This document shows positions 2 through 6,405 of a DNA stretch of 44,575 bases, piece by piece. Source of the stretch: Methanopyri archaeon (GTDB lineage Archaea; JAADCQ01; Methanopyri; Methanopyrales; Methanopyraceae); the NCBI GenBank assembly GCA_013154335.1, contig JAADCQ010000083.1, forward strand, positions 1-44,575, written 5' to 3'. How positions within the stretch are numbered: the stretch's first letter is position 1; each line of letters opens with the position of its first letter. The translations under genes were made by a program, and so were the position numbers. Under the pieces are notes generated by a model, which saw nothing but the letters and a program-made list of their open reading frames with translations, made no database searches and was not told the DNA's origin.

Positions 2-967
2 CTGGCCGCGTGCGTGCCGGCCTTCTGCGATGCGTGGCCGTCCCCGATGGCGTTCACCGAGGTGGGCGTCAGGAGCGAGTTGTTCGTGGAGGGCGTCCAC
101 GAGGTGGGCGGTTGGAAGATCGACTACGTGGAGGCGGAGTACAGGGCGTTGTTGTCGTTCCGGGAGGAGGAGCCGGTGACCCTGCACGTGTTGTTGCCGG
201 AGGGCACGGAGGTGTTGAGGGCGTGGATCCACGACGTTTCGTCGATGGATATAGCGATGAACATGATCCCGCCGGGTGGGACGCCGGTGAAGCCGGTGGG
301 GCGTTCGGAGGTGACCTGGTGCTTCGACGGTAGGTCTTGGACGTGGGAGCAGCTTGATTTCAGGTTGGTTCCGGACTCGAAGTACATGGTGTTGGTGTTG
401 GATCTGAGGATCCCGACGGTGCATATGTCGGCGGAGGAGATGGATCGGTGGATTTGGAACCATATGGTGGTGCCGAAGATGTACGACGCCGAGTTGGGGT
501 CCGAGTACGAGCGTGGGGTCGTCGAGTGGCCGGTGCCGGCGTATCCCTCGGGGCCGTTGGGTTTCAAGTTGTTCACGTCGGGGTCGGTGAAGGCCAGGGT
601 GGAGTTGTTCCTGTGGCCCGGGGGTGTCGTGACGCGTCCGCCTTCGGCGCCTTCGTGGGAGACGTTTCAGGTCTTCCTGACGCGTCATCTGGCGTTGGTG
701 TTCCCGGACGCTTCGGTGTTGCCGGTCACCGAGAGTGGGAGTGTGGACGTCGAGCGTGAGATCGTGGAGTCGGAGTGGCCGGAGGTGACGGGGAGGTTCG
801 GGTTCCCGTACGTGCCTGTGGTCGCGGTGTTGTCGTTCGACACGGGTGAGGGCGCGGGGTCGGACGGGTGTTCGTTCCCGTTCGTGTCGTGGTTGTTCAT
901 GCCGGCGGGTCCGGGGGTGGATCAGACGGCGTCGTTCCTGAGGCTTCTTCTCTGGCCCCTCCTCTAG
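2..967 (+). CDS. Hypothetical protein, open at the left edge
   Basis: The frame is open to the window edge. The first in-frame start visible is GTG at 14, giving 317 residues, but the true start may lie outside. I recognise no family. The protein is rich in Trp, Pro and Val, has no signal peptide, no obvious membrane segment and no cysteine cluster. Codon choice is strongly NNG/NNT (TTG Leu, GTG Val), the same as in the chelatase gene downstream, which supports it as a real resident gene. It ends 12 bases before the convergent PH-domain gene. Function unknown. Confidence 0.6.
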   Translation: MAACVPAFCDAWPSPMAFTEVGVRSELFVEGVHEVGGWKIDYVEAEYRALLSFREEEPVTLHVLLPEGTEVLRAWIHDVSSMDIAMNMIPPGGTPVKPVGRSEVTWCFDGRSWTWEQLDFRLVPDSKYMVLVLDLRIPTVHMSAEEMDRWIWNHMVVPKMYDAELGSEYERGVVEWPVPAYPSGPLGFKLFTSGSVKARVELFLWPGGVVTRPPSAPSWETFQVFLTRHLALVFPDASVLPVTESGSVDVEREIVESEWPEVTGRFGFPYVPVVAVLSFDTGEGAGSDGCSFPFVSWLFMPAGPGVDQTASFLRLLLWPLL

Positions 968-979
968 TTCTTCCCCACC

Positions 980-1420
980 TCAGGCGGTGGCGCCTCCGAG
1001 GGCTTCGGGGTCGATGCCTACGAGGACGGTGCCTTCGGGGGTTTCGAGCACGGTGAGGCGTTTTCTCCTCCTGGAGTAGACCTTGCACTTCCCGATGCCT
1101 TTCACCTTGTAGGTGCCGACGTACCCGAGGAAGCCTCCGATGCCGTGGAGGCGGTGGGCGTGGCGTAGGGTTAGGTCGGTGGTGCCCAGGACGCGTTGGA
1201 TCTTGAGTTCGACGGTCCTGGCGGGGGCGACGAGGAGTAGTTCGTCGCCTTGGACGACGGCGTACCTGGGTACGATCATGAAGGCGGCGATGAGTACGGT
1301 GGCGATGGGGATGGCGGCGGCGAGGGCTGTGCAGGGGCCGGTCTCGTAGGCGGCGAGGCCGAGGGCGGTGGCGACGCCGGCCAGGGTTAGTGCGGTGGTG
1401 GCGGCGGTGGTGCGGTCCAT
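980..1420 (-). CDS. Membrane-anchored bacterial-type PH domain protein
   Basis: About 146 residues from ATG at 1420; a TTG at 1453 would add 11 residues. Two hydrophobic segments lie at roughly residues 5-24 and 28-50, then a beta-rich domain with GIGGFLGYVGTYKVKGIGK near its middle and a C-terminal strand VLVGIDPE. This matches the bacterial PH (bPH_5-like) fold, in which two N-terminal helices anchor a cytosolic PH domain. Ligand and role are unknown. It is convergent with the hypothetical gene to the left and divergent from the chelatase to the right, so it shares the roughly 240-base regulatory gap with cobN. Confidence 0.7.
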   Translation of the reverse strand: MDRTTAATTALTLAGVATALGLAAYETGPCTALAAAIPIATVLIAAFMIVPRYAVVQGDELLLVAPARTVELKIQRVLGTTDLTLRHAHRLHGIGGFLGYVGTYKVKGIGKCKVYSRRRKRLTVLETPEGTVLVGIDPEALGGATA

Positions 1421-1497
1421 CCGGAGGGTTAGGACGAGGCAGCCGGCCGGCAACGGGGCCCTTCGGTTTTGGGGATCTCGGATCGGATATGTTTCGC

Positions 1498-1606
1498 GGT
1501 GTTACGGGTCGTCGGGGTACCCCCTACGGTGGTCGTCGTTGCGTACGGGTGGTTGGTGTTACGATATAGGGTGTTTGGTGTTATTATCGAGGTGTTCTCC
1601 GGTGTT
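1498..1606 (+). promoter_or_regulatory. GGTGTT direct-repeat cluster upstream of the chelatase gene
   Basis: GGTGTT occurs at 1498, 1555, 1570, 1577, 1591 and 1601. Three copies continue as GGTGTTA (1498, 1555, 1577). Five copies fall within 52 bases. The stretch is AT-richer than its surroundings and precedes the cobN start by 50-160 bases. I infer a regulator-binding region; no known operator consensus was recognised. Confidence 0.4.
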
Positions 1607-1658
1607 TCCGTATGAAAGGTTTTTGACCGGGGGCGGGTCGGTGGTCGGGGGGTTCGTT

Positions 1659-4600
1659 TTGGTCAGGGCCGTGGTGGTAGTGGGTCATCAGCCGTACTCC
1701 TTGAGCGTGGCCCGGGCGGCGGAGCGTTTGGAGGGTGAGGTGGACGTCGAGTTGTTCTACATGTGGGATCTGAGGGAGCGGCCGGAGGAGTTCGAGGAGG
1801 CCGTGAGGGGTGCGGATTTCGCCGTCCTGAACGTGATGGATTCCGCGGCCGCGAGGGCGGTGGATCTGGAGGGGATCGCCCGGGAGACGCCGTTCGTGGC
1901 GGTTCACTCGTGTTTCGAGGTGATGCGGGCTTCCTTCGAGAGTTTGGGTCTGAGGAAGAGTCGCCTGTTCAGGTTCTTCGAGAGGATGATGGAGCGTCGT
2001 AGGGATAACCTGTCGGGTGTGAGGATGGACGAGGCGTTGGAGCGTGGTGCGAGGTTCGCGGAGAGGATGGGTTGGTTCGGCGCGTTGAAGCGGTTGAAGG
2101 TGGCCATGCGGGCGTTCAGGTACTGGGATTACGGTGGTGTGGATAACGTGGAGAACATGCTCCTGTACCTGGCGAGGGAGTTGGCGGGGGCGGACGTGAG
2201 GGAGCCGGGTCCGCCGGTGGAGGTTCCGGGTAGGGCGTTGTACGATCCGGGGGAGGGTCTCGTCGACGTGGGTTTCCTCGAGGGGTTGAGGGAGGAGTTC
2301 GGGTCGTTGGTGCCGGTCACGTTCTACAAGTTCTTCTACGCGAACGGGAACACGGAGCACGTGGACGCGGTGATAGAGGCGTTGAGGGATCGTGGGATCG
2401 GGGCGATCGGTGCGTACTGTTCGGTGGACGCGTACGGGACGTTGGTTAGGTTCTTCGAGGGGGAGCGTCCGGACGCGGTGGTGGCGTTGACGTGTTTCAG
2501 GATCGTGGGGGGTCCGATGGGTGGTGAGGTGGAGCGCGGTGTGGAGTTGTTGAGGCGTTGGGACGTGCCGTACTTCGTGGCGCCTCAGGTCTGGTACCTG
2601 GATCGGGAGGAGTGGGAGGAGAGCGAGTTCGGTATGGATCCGTTGAGCCTGTTGATCAACGTGTCGTTGCCGGAGTTGGATTCGGCGATCTTCCTGCCGC
2701 CGGTGGCGTGTCAGGCGGAGGTGGGGAGTTTCGAGGGTGTTCCCCTGTACGCGATGGAGCCGATCCGGGAGAACGTGGGTAGGGCGGCCGAGTTGGTGGA
2801 GCGTTGGTTGCGGTTGAGGGAGGAGGGTCCGCGTAGGGTCGCGATCGTCCTGTTCAACTACCCGCCGGGCGAGGAGAACGTGGGTGAGGCGGCGTACCTG
2901 GACACGTTCTCGAGCCTCCGTAACGTGTTGGAGTTGTTGTCGGAGGAGCTGGGTTTGGAGGTGGATCTGGATCGTGTCACGGACGACGTGTTGAGGCGTC
3001 TGGGTAACCCGGATCTGAGGCACCGTCGGCCGGGGGACGTGCCGAGGGCGGACGAGGTGCCGTTGGATCGGTACCTGCGGTGGTTCGAGGGGTTGCCGCG
3101 GGAGGCGAGGGAGAGGGTGTTGGAGGCGTGGGGTGGTCCGGAGGAGGACCCGTTCCTGGTGGACGGTTCGTTCCCGGTGTTCGGGTTGGACCTCGGGGAC
3201 GTGTTCGTGGGGTTTCAGCCGACGAGGGGGCTTCACGAGTCGGAGGAGTCTTACCACGATGACACGCCGCCGACGCATCACTACGTGTGTTTCTACGAGT
3301 GGTTGAGGAGGGAGTGGGGCGCGGACGTGGTGCTTCACTTCGGGACGCACGGGACGTTGGAGTTCCTCCCGGGGAAGGAGAAGGCGCTCTCGCCGTCGTG
3401 TTTCCCGGACCTGTTGATCACGCCGTTGCCCCACGTCTACCTGTACAACGTGAACAACCCGTCGGAGGCGGCGGTCGCGAAGCACAGGACGTACGCTTAC
3501 ATGGTGTCTCACCTGCATCCTCCTCTGGCGGACCCGGAGTTGAGGGGTTACAGGGAGCTTCTGCGGTTGTGCGAGGCTGTGAGGGAGGGTCGTGAGGACG
3601 TGGGGGAGTTGAGGGAGGTGGCGGAGGCGGCCGGGATCGTGTTGGACGTCGAGGACGAGGACGCGTACGTGGGTGCGGTGGAGGCGATGGTGCGTAGGGC
3701 GTTGAGGGATAGGATACCGTGTGGTTTGCACGTTGTCGGGGCGGATCCGGACCCGGAGTTGGTGGCGGAGACGGTGGTGAGTTACGCGGAGTCGAGGGGG
3801 TTGTTGGAGGGGGATCGGGAGGAGGCCGTGGAGGCCGTGAGGGCGTTCGTGGAGGAGGGTGAGGATCGGTTGTCGGAGTTCTTCTCGGACGCGGATAGGG
3901 TGAGGGGTTTCGTGGAGGATCTTGTGGAGTCGTACGAGAGGGAGGTCGAGGGTTTGCTCCGGGCGTTGCGTGGGCGTTACGTGGAGCCTTCGCCGGGTGG
4001 TGAGGTGGAGAGGAACCCGGAGGTGGTCCCGACGGGTAGGAACATCGTGTCGTTGAACCCCAGGAGGATACCGACGCCGGAGGCGGAGGAGCGGGCGAGG
4101 GAGGCCGTGGAGGCGTTGTTGGAGCGTTACAGGCGGGAGCACGGTGGGTACCCGGAGACGGTGGGGTTGGTGTTGTGGGCTTTCGAGACGATGCAGACGG
4201 GTGGGGAGACGGTGGCGATGGCGTTCGAGTTGTTGGGCGTGCGGCCGGTGAGGGACGACGCGGGTAACGTGATCGACGTGGAGCCCGTGCCGGTGGAGGA
4301 GTTGGGGAGGCCGAGGGTGGACGTGGTGGTGACCATGTGCGGTATCTTCAGGGATACCTTCCCGAACGTGGTGGAGTTGTTGGATAGGGCCGTGAGGAAG
4401 GTGGCTCGGTTGGAGGAGCCCGGGGACGTGAACCCGGTGAGGAGGCACGTGGAGGAGTTGAGGGGGGAGGGGTACGAGGATCCGGAGGCCAGGGTGTTCG
4501 GGCCGAGGCCGGACCTGTACGCGGCGGATAACATGAGGTCCAAGGTGGAGTCGTCGGACTGGGAGGACGAGGAGGAGTTGGTCGAGGCTTACCTGAGCGA

Positions 4601-5177
4601 TATGGGGTACGTGTACGGGGAAGGGGTTCACGGGGAGGAGGCGAGGGAGTTGTTCGAGGCGGTGGCGGGTCGGCAGGATGTGACGGCGCAGGTGAGGTCG
4701 CATAGGTCCTACGATATCATAGATCTGGATCATTACTACGAGTTCCTGGGTGGGTTGACGGCGGCCGCCGGTGGGGACGTGGAGACGTACGTGATAGACT
4801 CGTGTTCGGGGGAGGGGCCGGAGGTTCACGATCTGGAGACGGTGGTGCGGTCGGGCGTCGTTTCGAGGTTGTTGAACGAGAAGTGGAAGCGTCACATGTT
4901 GAAGCACGGGTACGACGGGTGTAGGGAGATCGCGAAGCGCGTGGAGTACCTGGTGGGCTTGGCCGCCACGACGGGTGTCGTGGAGGATTGGGTGTGGGAG
5001 GGTGTGGCCCGGGAGTACCTGTTCGACGAGGAGACCCGGGAGAGGATGAGGGAGTTGAACCCGGCGGCCCTGCGGGCCGTGGCGGATAGGTTGTTGGAGG
5101 CGTACGAGCGTGGGTACTGGGACGCGGACGAGGGGACCGTGCGAGAGATCGAAAGGCTGAGGAGGGATCTGTCGTGA
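1659..5177 (+). CDS. cobN: Cobaltochelatase CobN / Mg-chelatase H-type large subunit
   Basis: A protein of about 1172 residues of the CobN/ChlH/BchH family, the large subunit that binds the tetrapyrrole and metal in ATP-dependent chelatases. Family hallmarks are GTHGTLEFLPGKE at about residues 562-574, then YNVNNPSEAAVAKHR, and later LWAFETMQTGGET. TTG at 1659 is preferred because a G-rich Shine-Dalgarno run (1647-1652) sits six bases upstream; GTG at 1641 is an alternative. The length is near that of archaeal homologues. The partner ATPase subunits (ChlI/ChlD or CobS/CobT types) are not in the window. In methanogens the metal and product of these CobN homologues are not settled, because cobalt and nickel insertion are usually assigned to CbiX/CfbA. 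The neighbouring Cys-rich secreted protein suggests a metal context, by inference only. Confidence 0.9.
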   Translation: MVRAVVVVGHQPYSLSVARAAERLEGEVDVELFYMWDLRERPEEFEEAVRGADFAVLNVMDSAAARAVDLEGIARETPFVAVHSCFEVMRASFESLGLRKSRLFRFFERMMERRRDNLSGVRMDEALERGARFAERMGWFGALKRLKVAMRAFRYWDYGGVDNVENMLLYLARELAGADVREPGPPVEVPGRALYDPGEGLVDVGFLEGLREEFGSLVPVTFYKFFYANGNTEHVDAVIEALRDRGIGAIGAYCSVDAYGTLVRFFEGERPDAVVALTCFRIVGGPMGGEVERGVELLRRWDVPYFVAPQVWYLDREEWEESEFGMDPLSLLINVSLPELDSAIFLPPVACQAEVGSFEGVPLYAMEPIRENVGRAAELVERWLRLREEGPRRVAIVLFNYPPGEENVGEAAYLDTFSSLRNVLELLSEELGLEVDLDRVTDDVLRRLGNPDLRHRRPGDVPRADEVPLDRYLRWFEGLPREARERVLEAWGGPEEDPFLVDGSFPVFGLDLGDVFVGFQPTRGLHESEESYHDDTPPTHHYVCFYEWLRREWGADVVLHFGTHGTLEFLPGKEKALSPSCFPDLLITPLPHVYLYNVNNPSEAAVAKHRTYAYMVSHLHPPLADPELRGYRELLRLCEAVREGREDVGELREVAEAAGIVLDVEDEDAYVGAVEAMVRRALRDRIPCGLHVVGADPDPELVAETVVSYAESRGLLEGDREEAVEAVRAFVEEGEDRLSEFFSDADRVRGFVEDLVESYEREVEGLLRALRGRYVEPSPGGEVERNPEVVPTGRNIVSLNPRRIPTPEAEERAREAVEALLERYRREHGGYPETVGLVLWAFETMQTGGETVAMAFELLGVRPVRDDAGNVIDVEPVPVEELGRPRVDVVVTMCGIFRDTFPNVVELLDRAVRKVARLEEPGDVNPVRRHVEELRGEGYEDPEARVFGPRPDLYAADNMRSKVESSDWEDEEELVEAYLSDMGYVYGEGVHGEEARELFEAVAGRQDVTAQVRSHRSYDIIDLDHYYEFLGGLTAAAGGDVETYVIDSCSGEGPEVHDLETVVRSGVVSRLLNEKWKRHMLKHGYDGCREIAKRVEYLVGLAATTGVVEDWVWEGVAREYLFDEETRERMRELNPAALRAVADRLLEAYERGYWDADEGTVREIERLRRDLS

Positions 5178-5240
5178 TCGGGTGGCAAACCGTGGTGTCG
5201 TCGATACGTTGAGTGTCTCGTTTTTCCGGGTCGTGGTCGT

Positions 5241-5263
5241 ATCGTTATTTTGTTCGTAACGAT
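5241..5263. terminator. Inverted repeat between convergent genes
   Basis: Perfect seven-base arms ATCGTTA (5241-5247) and TAACGAT (5257-5263) flank a nine-base T-rich loop in the 107-base gap between the ends of cobN and the Cys/Thr-rich gene. Its position suggests a bidirectional terminator. The same heptamer recurs upstream of the Cys/Thr gene, so a protein-binding role is also possible. Confidence 0.4.
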
Positions 5264-5284
5264 TCTTGGAGGGGCGTGGGAGGG

Positions 5285-5785
5285 TTAGGAGATCACGTAG
5301 TACGTGCCCGTGGTCGTGGTGGTCGTCGTGGTCGTGGTGGACGTGGTCGGCTCCGTCGTCGTGGTCGTCGGTGTGACCGTCGTGACGGTCGGTGTGGCCG
5401 TGGTGACCGTGGTCGTCGGCGTGGTCGTCACCTCGGTCGTCGTGGTGGTGGGCGCCGTCGTTGTCGTCGGCTCGGTCACCGTGGTGGTCGGGGTCGTGGT
5501 CGTCACCGTGGTCGTGGGCGTCGTCACGGTCGGTGTCTCCGTGGTGGTCGTCGGGACGGTCACCGTCCCGGTGGTCGTGCAACAGCAGCACGTGCATCCT
5601 TCGCAGCAGGTGCAGTTGCATCCGCAGGTGCAGTGGCACCCGTGGTGGCAACCGTGGTGGTGGGGCTCGCACGTGCAGTGGGGCACGCAGGTGCAGCAGG
5701 TGTGATCGCACGGTACGCACGGACACGCCACGGCGGGCGCGAAGGCGGCCGCGAGGGCCGTTATCAACGCGGCCAGGATCCTCAC
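5285..5785 (-). CDS. Secreted Cys/His-rich protein with Thr-rich tail
   Basis: 166 residues, GTG start at 5785 behind a GGGGGTGA site. Three parts are visible: a signal peptide (residues 1-20, hydrophobic and ending in AVA); a head (about 21-69) holding 21 cysteines and 8 histidines in 49 residues with many CxC and CC pairs; and a tail (about 70-166) that is mostly Thr with Pro, Val and Glu, ending GTYYVIS. There is no C-terminal membrane anchor. The head resembles metallothionein-like or disulfide-knot sequences; the tail resembles an O-glycosylated stalk. I recognise no family. The order (Cys head at the N-terminus, Thr tail at the C-terminus) fits a released or tail-attached extracellular metal-binding protein, but function is not established. 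The opposite strand is also open (Val-rich) as a trivial consequence of the ACN repeats. Confidence 0.75.
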   Translation of the reverse strand: MRILAALITALAAAFAPAVACPCVPCDHTCCTCVPHCTCEPHHHGCHHGCHCTCGCNCTCCEGCTCCCCTTTGTVTVPTTTTETPTVTTPTTTVTTTTPTTTVTEPTTTTAPTTTTTEVTTTPTTTVTTATPTVTTVTPTTTTTEPTTSTTTTTTTTTTGTYYVIS

Positions 5786-5825
5786 CGTTCTTCACCCCCT
5801 TACTCCGGGGTGCGTACCTTGATAA

Positions 5826-5942
5826 TAACGATTCGGTCCTCGGTTTTATCGGTGTAAATCGTGTTTAATTTCGGGTTTTGAACTTGAAGTGTTTTGGTTT
5901 TTCGTTCGGTTACCAAGCGTTCGTTATCCTCGGTGTAACGAT
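5826..5942. promoter_or_regulatory. AT-rich gap with GGTGTAA and TAACGAT motifs
   Basis: The gap from 5786 to 6051 separates the divergent Cys/Thr-rich gene and pth2. It holds TAACGAT at 5826-5832 and 5936-5942, TCGTTAT at 5921-5927, and GGTGTAA at 5851-5857 and 5932-5938. It is much richer in AT than its surroundings and probably contains the promoter of the minus-strand gene. Related GGTGTTA copies lie upstream of cobN. Confidence 0.4.
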
Positions 5943-5981
5943 CGATTGAAAAGGCGAGGTGGTGGTCTTCGGCGGTGGACC

Positions 5982-6035
5982 GGTGAGGAGGAGCTGACGG
6001 GCTGAGTGATCGCGATGATGTGACCTCCTCTCACC
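5982..6035 (+). other. Strong hairpin upstream of pth2
   Basis: The arms 5982-5993 and 6025-6035 can form 11 base pairs with one bulged G (5988). The 31-base loop carries two CTGA boxes (5994, 6002) and GATGATG (6014-6020). It lies just upstream of the Shine-Dalgarno run GAGGGG (6037-6042). It may be a leader structure or a small RNA; the boxes do not match a full C/D guide RNA layout. Confidence 0.35.
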
Positions 6036-6051: not shown

Positions 6052-6405
6052 TTGCCGTACAAGCAGGTGATCGTGGTGAGGGGAGATCTGGACCTCAGTA
6101 GGGGTAAGTTGGCGGCTCAGGTGGCGCACGCGGCCGTGGGTGCTTTCCTGGAGGCGGAGAGGTCCGGGGCGCCCGTGGACGCGTGGCTCAGGGAGGGTCA
6201 GAAGAAGGTGGTCGTCCGGTGTGAGGACGAGCGGGAGTTGTTCGAGCTCGAGGAGAGGGCGCGTGGTCTGGGGCTTCCGTGTTTCCTGGTTAGGGACGCC
6301 GGGTTGACGGAGTTGGAGCCGGGTACCCCGACGTGTTTGGGTGTTGGGCCCGAGGAGGAGCGTGAGGTGGACAAGGTCACGGGTCACTTGCCGTTGCTGA
6401 GGTAG
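6052..6405 (+). CDS. pth2: Peptidyl-tRNA hydrolase, Pth2 family
   Basis: 117 residues, the usual size of archaeal/eukaryotic Pth2, which cleaves peptidyl-tRNA released from stalled ribosomes. The N-terminus YKQVIVVRGDLDLSRGKLAAQVAHAA carries the family's K-x-Q-V-x-V-R-x-D-L and GK-x-AAQ-x-AHA signatures, and the C-terminal part contains TCLGVGPEE. TTG at 6052 is the start, with GAGGGG about nine bases upstream. The gene stands alone on the plus strand, convergent with infB. Confidence 0.95.
   Translation: MPYKQVIVVRGDLDLSRGKLAAQVAHAAVGAFLEAERSGAPVDAWLREGQKKVVVRCEDERELFELEERARGLGLPCFLVRDAGLTELEPGTPTCLGVGPEEEREVDKVTGHLPLLR

Follow-up and report, generated by a model that had tools for sequence, protein, structure and literature searches.

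A putative exported protein with a cysteine/histidine-rich head and a threonine tail, encoded at a rearrangement breakpoint in a Methanopyrus genome

Short reading frames of extreme composition raise the question of whether they are genes at all and, if so, what their products might do. Such a frame lies on the minus strand of the window analysed here, a stretch of 44,575 nucleotides from a Methanopyri archaeon (contig JAADCQ010000083.1). A preliminary description of this DNA had proposed a secreted protein in which a signal peptide is followed by 49 residues with 21 Cys and 8 His and then by about 95 mostly Thr residues, located 107 bases from the end of a gene for a CobN-type chelatase. Translation of positions 5285-5785 (minus strand) bore this layout out. 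The 20-residue signal peptide VRILAALITALAAAFAPAVA (5726..5785, minus), with predicted cleavage after AVA, precedes the Cys/His head CPCVPCDHTCCTCVPHCTCEPHHHGCHHGCHCTCGCNCTCCEGCTCCCC (residues 21-69; 5579..5725, minus), and the remaining, C-terminal tail of 97 residues (5288..5578, minus), which ends in GTYYVIS, consists for two thirds of Thr (64 residues), with 10 Pro and 10 Val. The spacing from the CobN stop at 5177 was likewise as described.

The complete ORF (5285..5785, minus) encodes 166 amino acids, from a GTG start at 5785 to a TAA stop ending at 5285, and since an in-frame TGA lies three codons 5' of the GTG, the start is fixed. Six bases 5' of the GTG we found a Shine-Dalgarno-like GGGGGTGA (5792..5799, minus) that also occurs in sibling secreted genes, and the AT-rich upstream region (5786..5976, minus; 47% GC), which includes GTTATTATC at 5829-5821, is the probable promoter. 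The ORF has a GC content of 68%, versus 47% and 54% in its AT-rich flanks, and wobble GC in the minus frame is 92% (49% C, 43% G). Its Thr codons (ACG 37, ACC 30, ACA 4) are used at ratios close to the 56/41/3% of neighbouring genes. Their wobble bases alternate (ACC/ACG) slightly above random (z 2.7), as expected of a hexamer repeat.

Export of the protein is well supported by the character of its N-terminus, and probably proceeds via the Sec route. The signal peptide, judged by eye, has a mean hydropathy of 2.31 over 19 residues and an AxA site, and comparison with other secreted Methanopyrus proteins showed it to be of the genus type. Another secreted gene in the same genome (G000:C69) is 73% identical to the orphan gene in its Shine-Dalgarno, start and signal DNA; there, too, the leader precedes GTG-AGG, and the signal peptide resembles that of the orphan. 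At the other end of the protein, a C-terminal hydrophobic anchor with a basic end is absent and the tail contains no transmembrane segment; the highest 19-residue hydropathy past residue 25 (0.89) lies in the Cys head and not at the C-terminus, compared with 1.8-2.7 for sibling C-termini. Secretion, Cys/His head and Thr tail, as given in the preliminary description, are supported, but its knob on a stalk has to be redrawn: the head forms the mature N-terminus, and the tail is C-terminal without a membrane anchor.

A comparable design was found in an exported class of Methanopyrus proteins (G000:C27, 3951-4469, C19 and C59; G001; G002), which consist of a signal peptide, one or two small HC.F.D.NGDG.CD heads, usually a Ser/Thr stalk (present in the members from C27, G001 and G002), and a C-terminal hydrophobic anchor ending basic. 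For two scanned members of this class no Pfam family reached its cut-off. In a further protein, G000:C82, a Thr run directly follows the signal and an anchor is located at the C-terminus. The orphan resembles the stalked proteins in its signal peptide, small Cys/His head and Thr/Ser-rich stalk, but both the C-terminal anchor and the HC.F.D.NGDG.CD motif are missing, its head is unrelated, and the stalked proteins have far fewer head Cys; in cross-searches neither retrieved the other. Because the genus contains this class and G000:C82, export of a Cys/His head joined to a Thr tail is credible for the orphan. These observations also point to stalked Cys/His surface proteins as a Methanopyrus class of which little has been described.

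The orphan gene is flanked by the convergent CobN/BchH-type chelatase gene (1644..5177, plus, start approximate; PF02514, E 9e-297) and by a divergent gene for the peptidyl-tRNA hydrolase Pth2 (6052..6405, plus; PF01981, NF003314). The CobN protein is 80-86% identical to CobN of three congeners. DNA alignment to relatives stops at 5137-5155, at the CobN end, and restarts at 5977-5984, before Pth2, and the ∼800 bp in between (5178..5976) have no equivalent beside either gene in relatives. There, the two genes are >100 kb apart, making their adjacency unique to this genome, and in two relatives a gene for an L7Ae-like ribosomal protein, identified by sequence reading, lies divergently upstream of Pth2. 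On these alignments, the orphan gene lies, between CobN and Pth2, in genome-specific sequence at a rearrangement breakpoint. An assembly chimera appears unlikely, as the best similarity of the region elsewhere in the same genome is ∼43 bp at 86%, too little for an easy misjoin.

The preliminary description had also reported upstream motifs common to the orphan gene and CobN and had implied a functional link to the chelatase, which the analysis did not support. What is shared comes down to a single 9-mer, GTTATTATC, and 38% of random region pairs in the window likewise have some 9-mer in common. As the two genes are convergent, no common promoter is possible, and with an adjacency that is not conserved and 9-mer sharing that is commonplace, the link is weak and co-regulation with CobN was rejected. 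The neighbourhood of the orphan gene showed no metal regulator or transporter.

Elsewhere in the window, positions 14-967 (plus) encode a 317-aa protein without a Pfam match that by eye is like an exported protein in G002:C1 (about 1312187-1313273), and positions 980-1453 (minus) encode a 157-aa protein that carries a bacterial PH domain (PF10882) and, apparently, hydrophobic segments. Four Methanopyrus genomes each encode several very large CobN-related proteins (about 1300-2160 aa) besides the CobN of the window (G000:C74, C80, C13, C39; G001-G003). Downstream of CobN in G002 (segment positions 298-3662) a series of genes encodes proteins with apparent signal peptides at their N-termini.

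Homology searches, including HMMER, did not find the orphan protein in the other four Methanopyrus genomes, and the DNA of the locus was absent at the CobN and Pth2 loci in the three genomes checked there. Absence from related genomes had been proposed as an argument against the gene. The frame is indeed missing from all four but, because at three of them the DNA itself is missing too, this reveals an orphan and does not disprove the gene. HMMER controls with mutated copies of the query indicated that divergent homologues with an intact Cys pattern would mostly be detected, and the HMMER negatives therefore count, with the caveat of the search's loose first look. In 152 genomes of another archaeal phylum nothing convincing was found. 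The first 80 residues, searched against 84,980 genomes and against viral contigs, gave no match, nor did a tblastn search of plasmids, but both may say nothing, since a control tblastn with low-complexity filtering on failed to recover even the query itself.

Several weak candidates were rejected: matches in another archaeal genus are short Arg/His-rich frames, and of two matches in G002 one (970735) falls within a TrkG-like transporter gene and the other (1368438) is antisense to a secreted gene. A CTC-repeat DNA pattern gave >100 matches each in the genome and viral collections, and those fetched were mostly Cys-rich simple-repeat frames without the signal-head-stalk layout. In these searches, no relative of the orphan was detectable, not even among four sister species.

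The 49-residue head contains 11 CxC, 5 CC and 5 CTC motifs, and its 21 Cys and 8 His make up to 29 metal ligands available. Part of it is built by two 18-bp tandem repeat pairs (89%; 5606-5642 and 5660-5696), and it contains the 6-residue tandem duplications CTC[VE]PH (CTCVPH/CTCEPH) and GC[HN]CTC (GCHCTC/GCNCTC). The head is aperiodic and has 9 residue types. Consistent with the earlier statement that the layout matches no known family, the head matched no Pfam family at E up to 10 and no PDB sequence, in searches that are limited by low complexity. The structure prediction suggested along with that statement was carried out with AlphaFold on this one orphan sequence and yielded no structure (mean pLDDT 56.6, pTM 0.17).

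What might such a protein do? We give even chances to the reading that this real, lineage-specific gene encodes a metallothionein-like metal ligand, exported and rich in Cys and His, on a disordered, probably O-glycosylated Thr tail. After Sec export and signal cleavage, the mature protein would begin with the 49-residue Cys/His cluster, and the composition and predicted location of this cluster suggest that it would bind soft or borderline metals (Zn, Cu, Cd, Ni or Fe) via thiolate and imidazole outside the membrane, as a metallothionein would; its thiols would presumably stay reduced outside an anaerobic vent methanogen. The Thr/Pro/Val tail, disordered and extended, may position the cluster within the pseudomurein wall or past it. 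O-linked glycans on Thr are possible in archaeal envelope proteins (PMC2913515), and the Methanopyrus wall is double-layered, with pseudomurein (PMC4243693). Counting against this reading are the failure to find a homologue in the four congeners, the head's lack of a Pfam or PDB match, the uninformative AlphaFold model, surroundings in which no metal regulator or transporter was seen, the missing C-terminal anchor, the neutral codon use of the head and the alternating Thr wobble bases. The more ambitious claim, that a hyperthermophilic archaeon has an extracellular protein akin to metallothioneins in which a cluster of at most 29 ligands on a glycosylated Thr tail captures or buffers vent metals in the cell wall, is put forward tentatively and with less than even confidence.

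Whether the minus strand is coding at all could be questioned on codon statistics. Over the whole ORF the synonymous-codon score is 31.7 for the minus frame and also 31.7 for the wobble-matched plus-strand frame, which does not separate the strands, and for the head alone it is -0.8 (neutral) versus 5.4 for the plus frame, the latter with one stop. We consider it very improbable, however, that the plus strand is coding (a Val/Gln/Trp-rich 133-aa ORF, 5304-5705) or that the region is non-coding: the plus reading lacks a signal peptide, the wobble-matched frame is broken by three stops over the ORF, and a poly-valine protein is implausible, whereas Thr stalks recur in this genome. As codon statistics do not decide, the minus strand was chosen for its start, Shine-Dalgarno sequence, signal peptide and uninterrupted frame. 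A young orphan could also have arisen by repeats, with low-complexity DNA at the breakpoint gaining a signal peptide and promoter and perhaps being expressed with little or no selected function. The breakpoint position, the short tandem duplications in head and tail, the ACC/ACG alternation and the simple-repeat nature of most similar pattern matches elsewhere are consistent with such an origin, which we nevertheless regard as unlikely in view of the aperiodic head with its 9 residue types, the full anatomy from Shine-Dalgarno sequence through start and signal to stop, and a codon choice like that of native genes. That the ORF is a real, lineage-specific gene and more than a chance frame is well supported by its sequence.

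If the product is exported, its cysteines might serve structure and not metal, pairing with each other or cross-linking neighbouring chains or the wall into a heat-stable disulfide knob, with the Thr tail as a mucin-like spacer. The predicted extracellular location, the extreme Cys density and the mucin-like tail would suit this somewhat unlikely alternative. Against it, 21 is an odd number, so that at least one Cys would be unpaired within a monomer; the 8 His among the Cys point to metal; metal thiolate proteins typically show CC and CxC spacing; and disulfides would be disfavoured in a sulfidic, anoxic habitat. A variant of the metal-binding reading makes the protein a lipoprotein, with the first mature Cys lipidated, the head at the membrane and the tail pointing outward. 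In its favour, a Cys stands exactly at +1 after AVA and the protein has no other anchor, but a lipobox usually has Leu at -3 and is not known to allow Pro at -4, and the sequence here, A-P-A-V-A-C, lacks the former and has the latter. We regard the variant as improbable.

Should the head bind metal as in the preferred reading, an organism with growth near 100 C would have a metallothionein-like protein that is exported, which would suggest that this methanogen, with its requirement for Ni, Co and Fe, handles vent metals at its surface. With metallothioneins, some bacterial members of which also use His, the head shares a short chain, extreme Cys content, and CxC and CC motifs; it differs in its predicted export, the 8 His in 49 residues, the long Thr tail, and the lack of a Pfam or PDB sequence match. 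Metallothioneins are described as cytosolic (PMC8790569), a location that does not fit the orphan, given the signal peptide read from its sequence, and Thermococcus gammatolerans, a hyperthermophile, reportedly lacks metallothionein genes (PMC3407056). The orphan may be an extreme and perhaps novel type of exported metal binder. The other comparison is with those S-layer and surface glycoproteins of archaea that have Thr-rich, O-glycosylated stretches: the orphan likewise appears to be exported with a Thr-rich extended segment, which may be glycosylated, but it has neither a globular ectodomain nor a C-terminal anchor.
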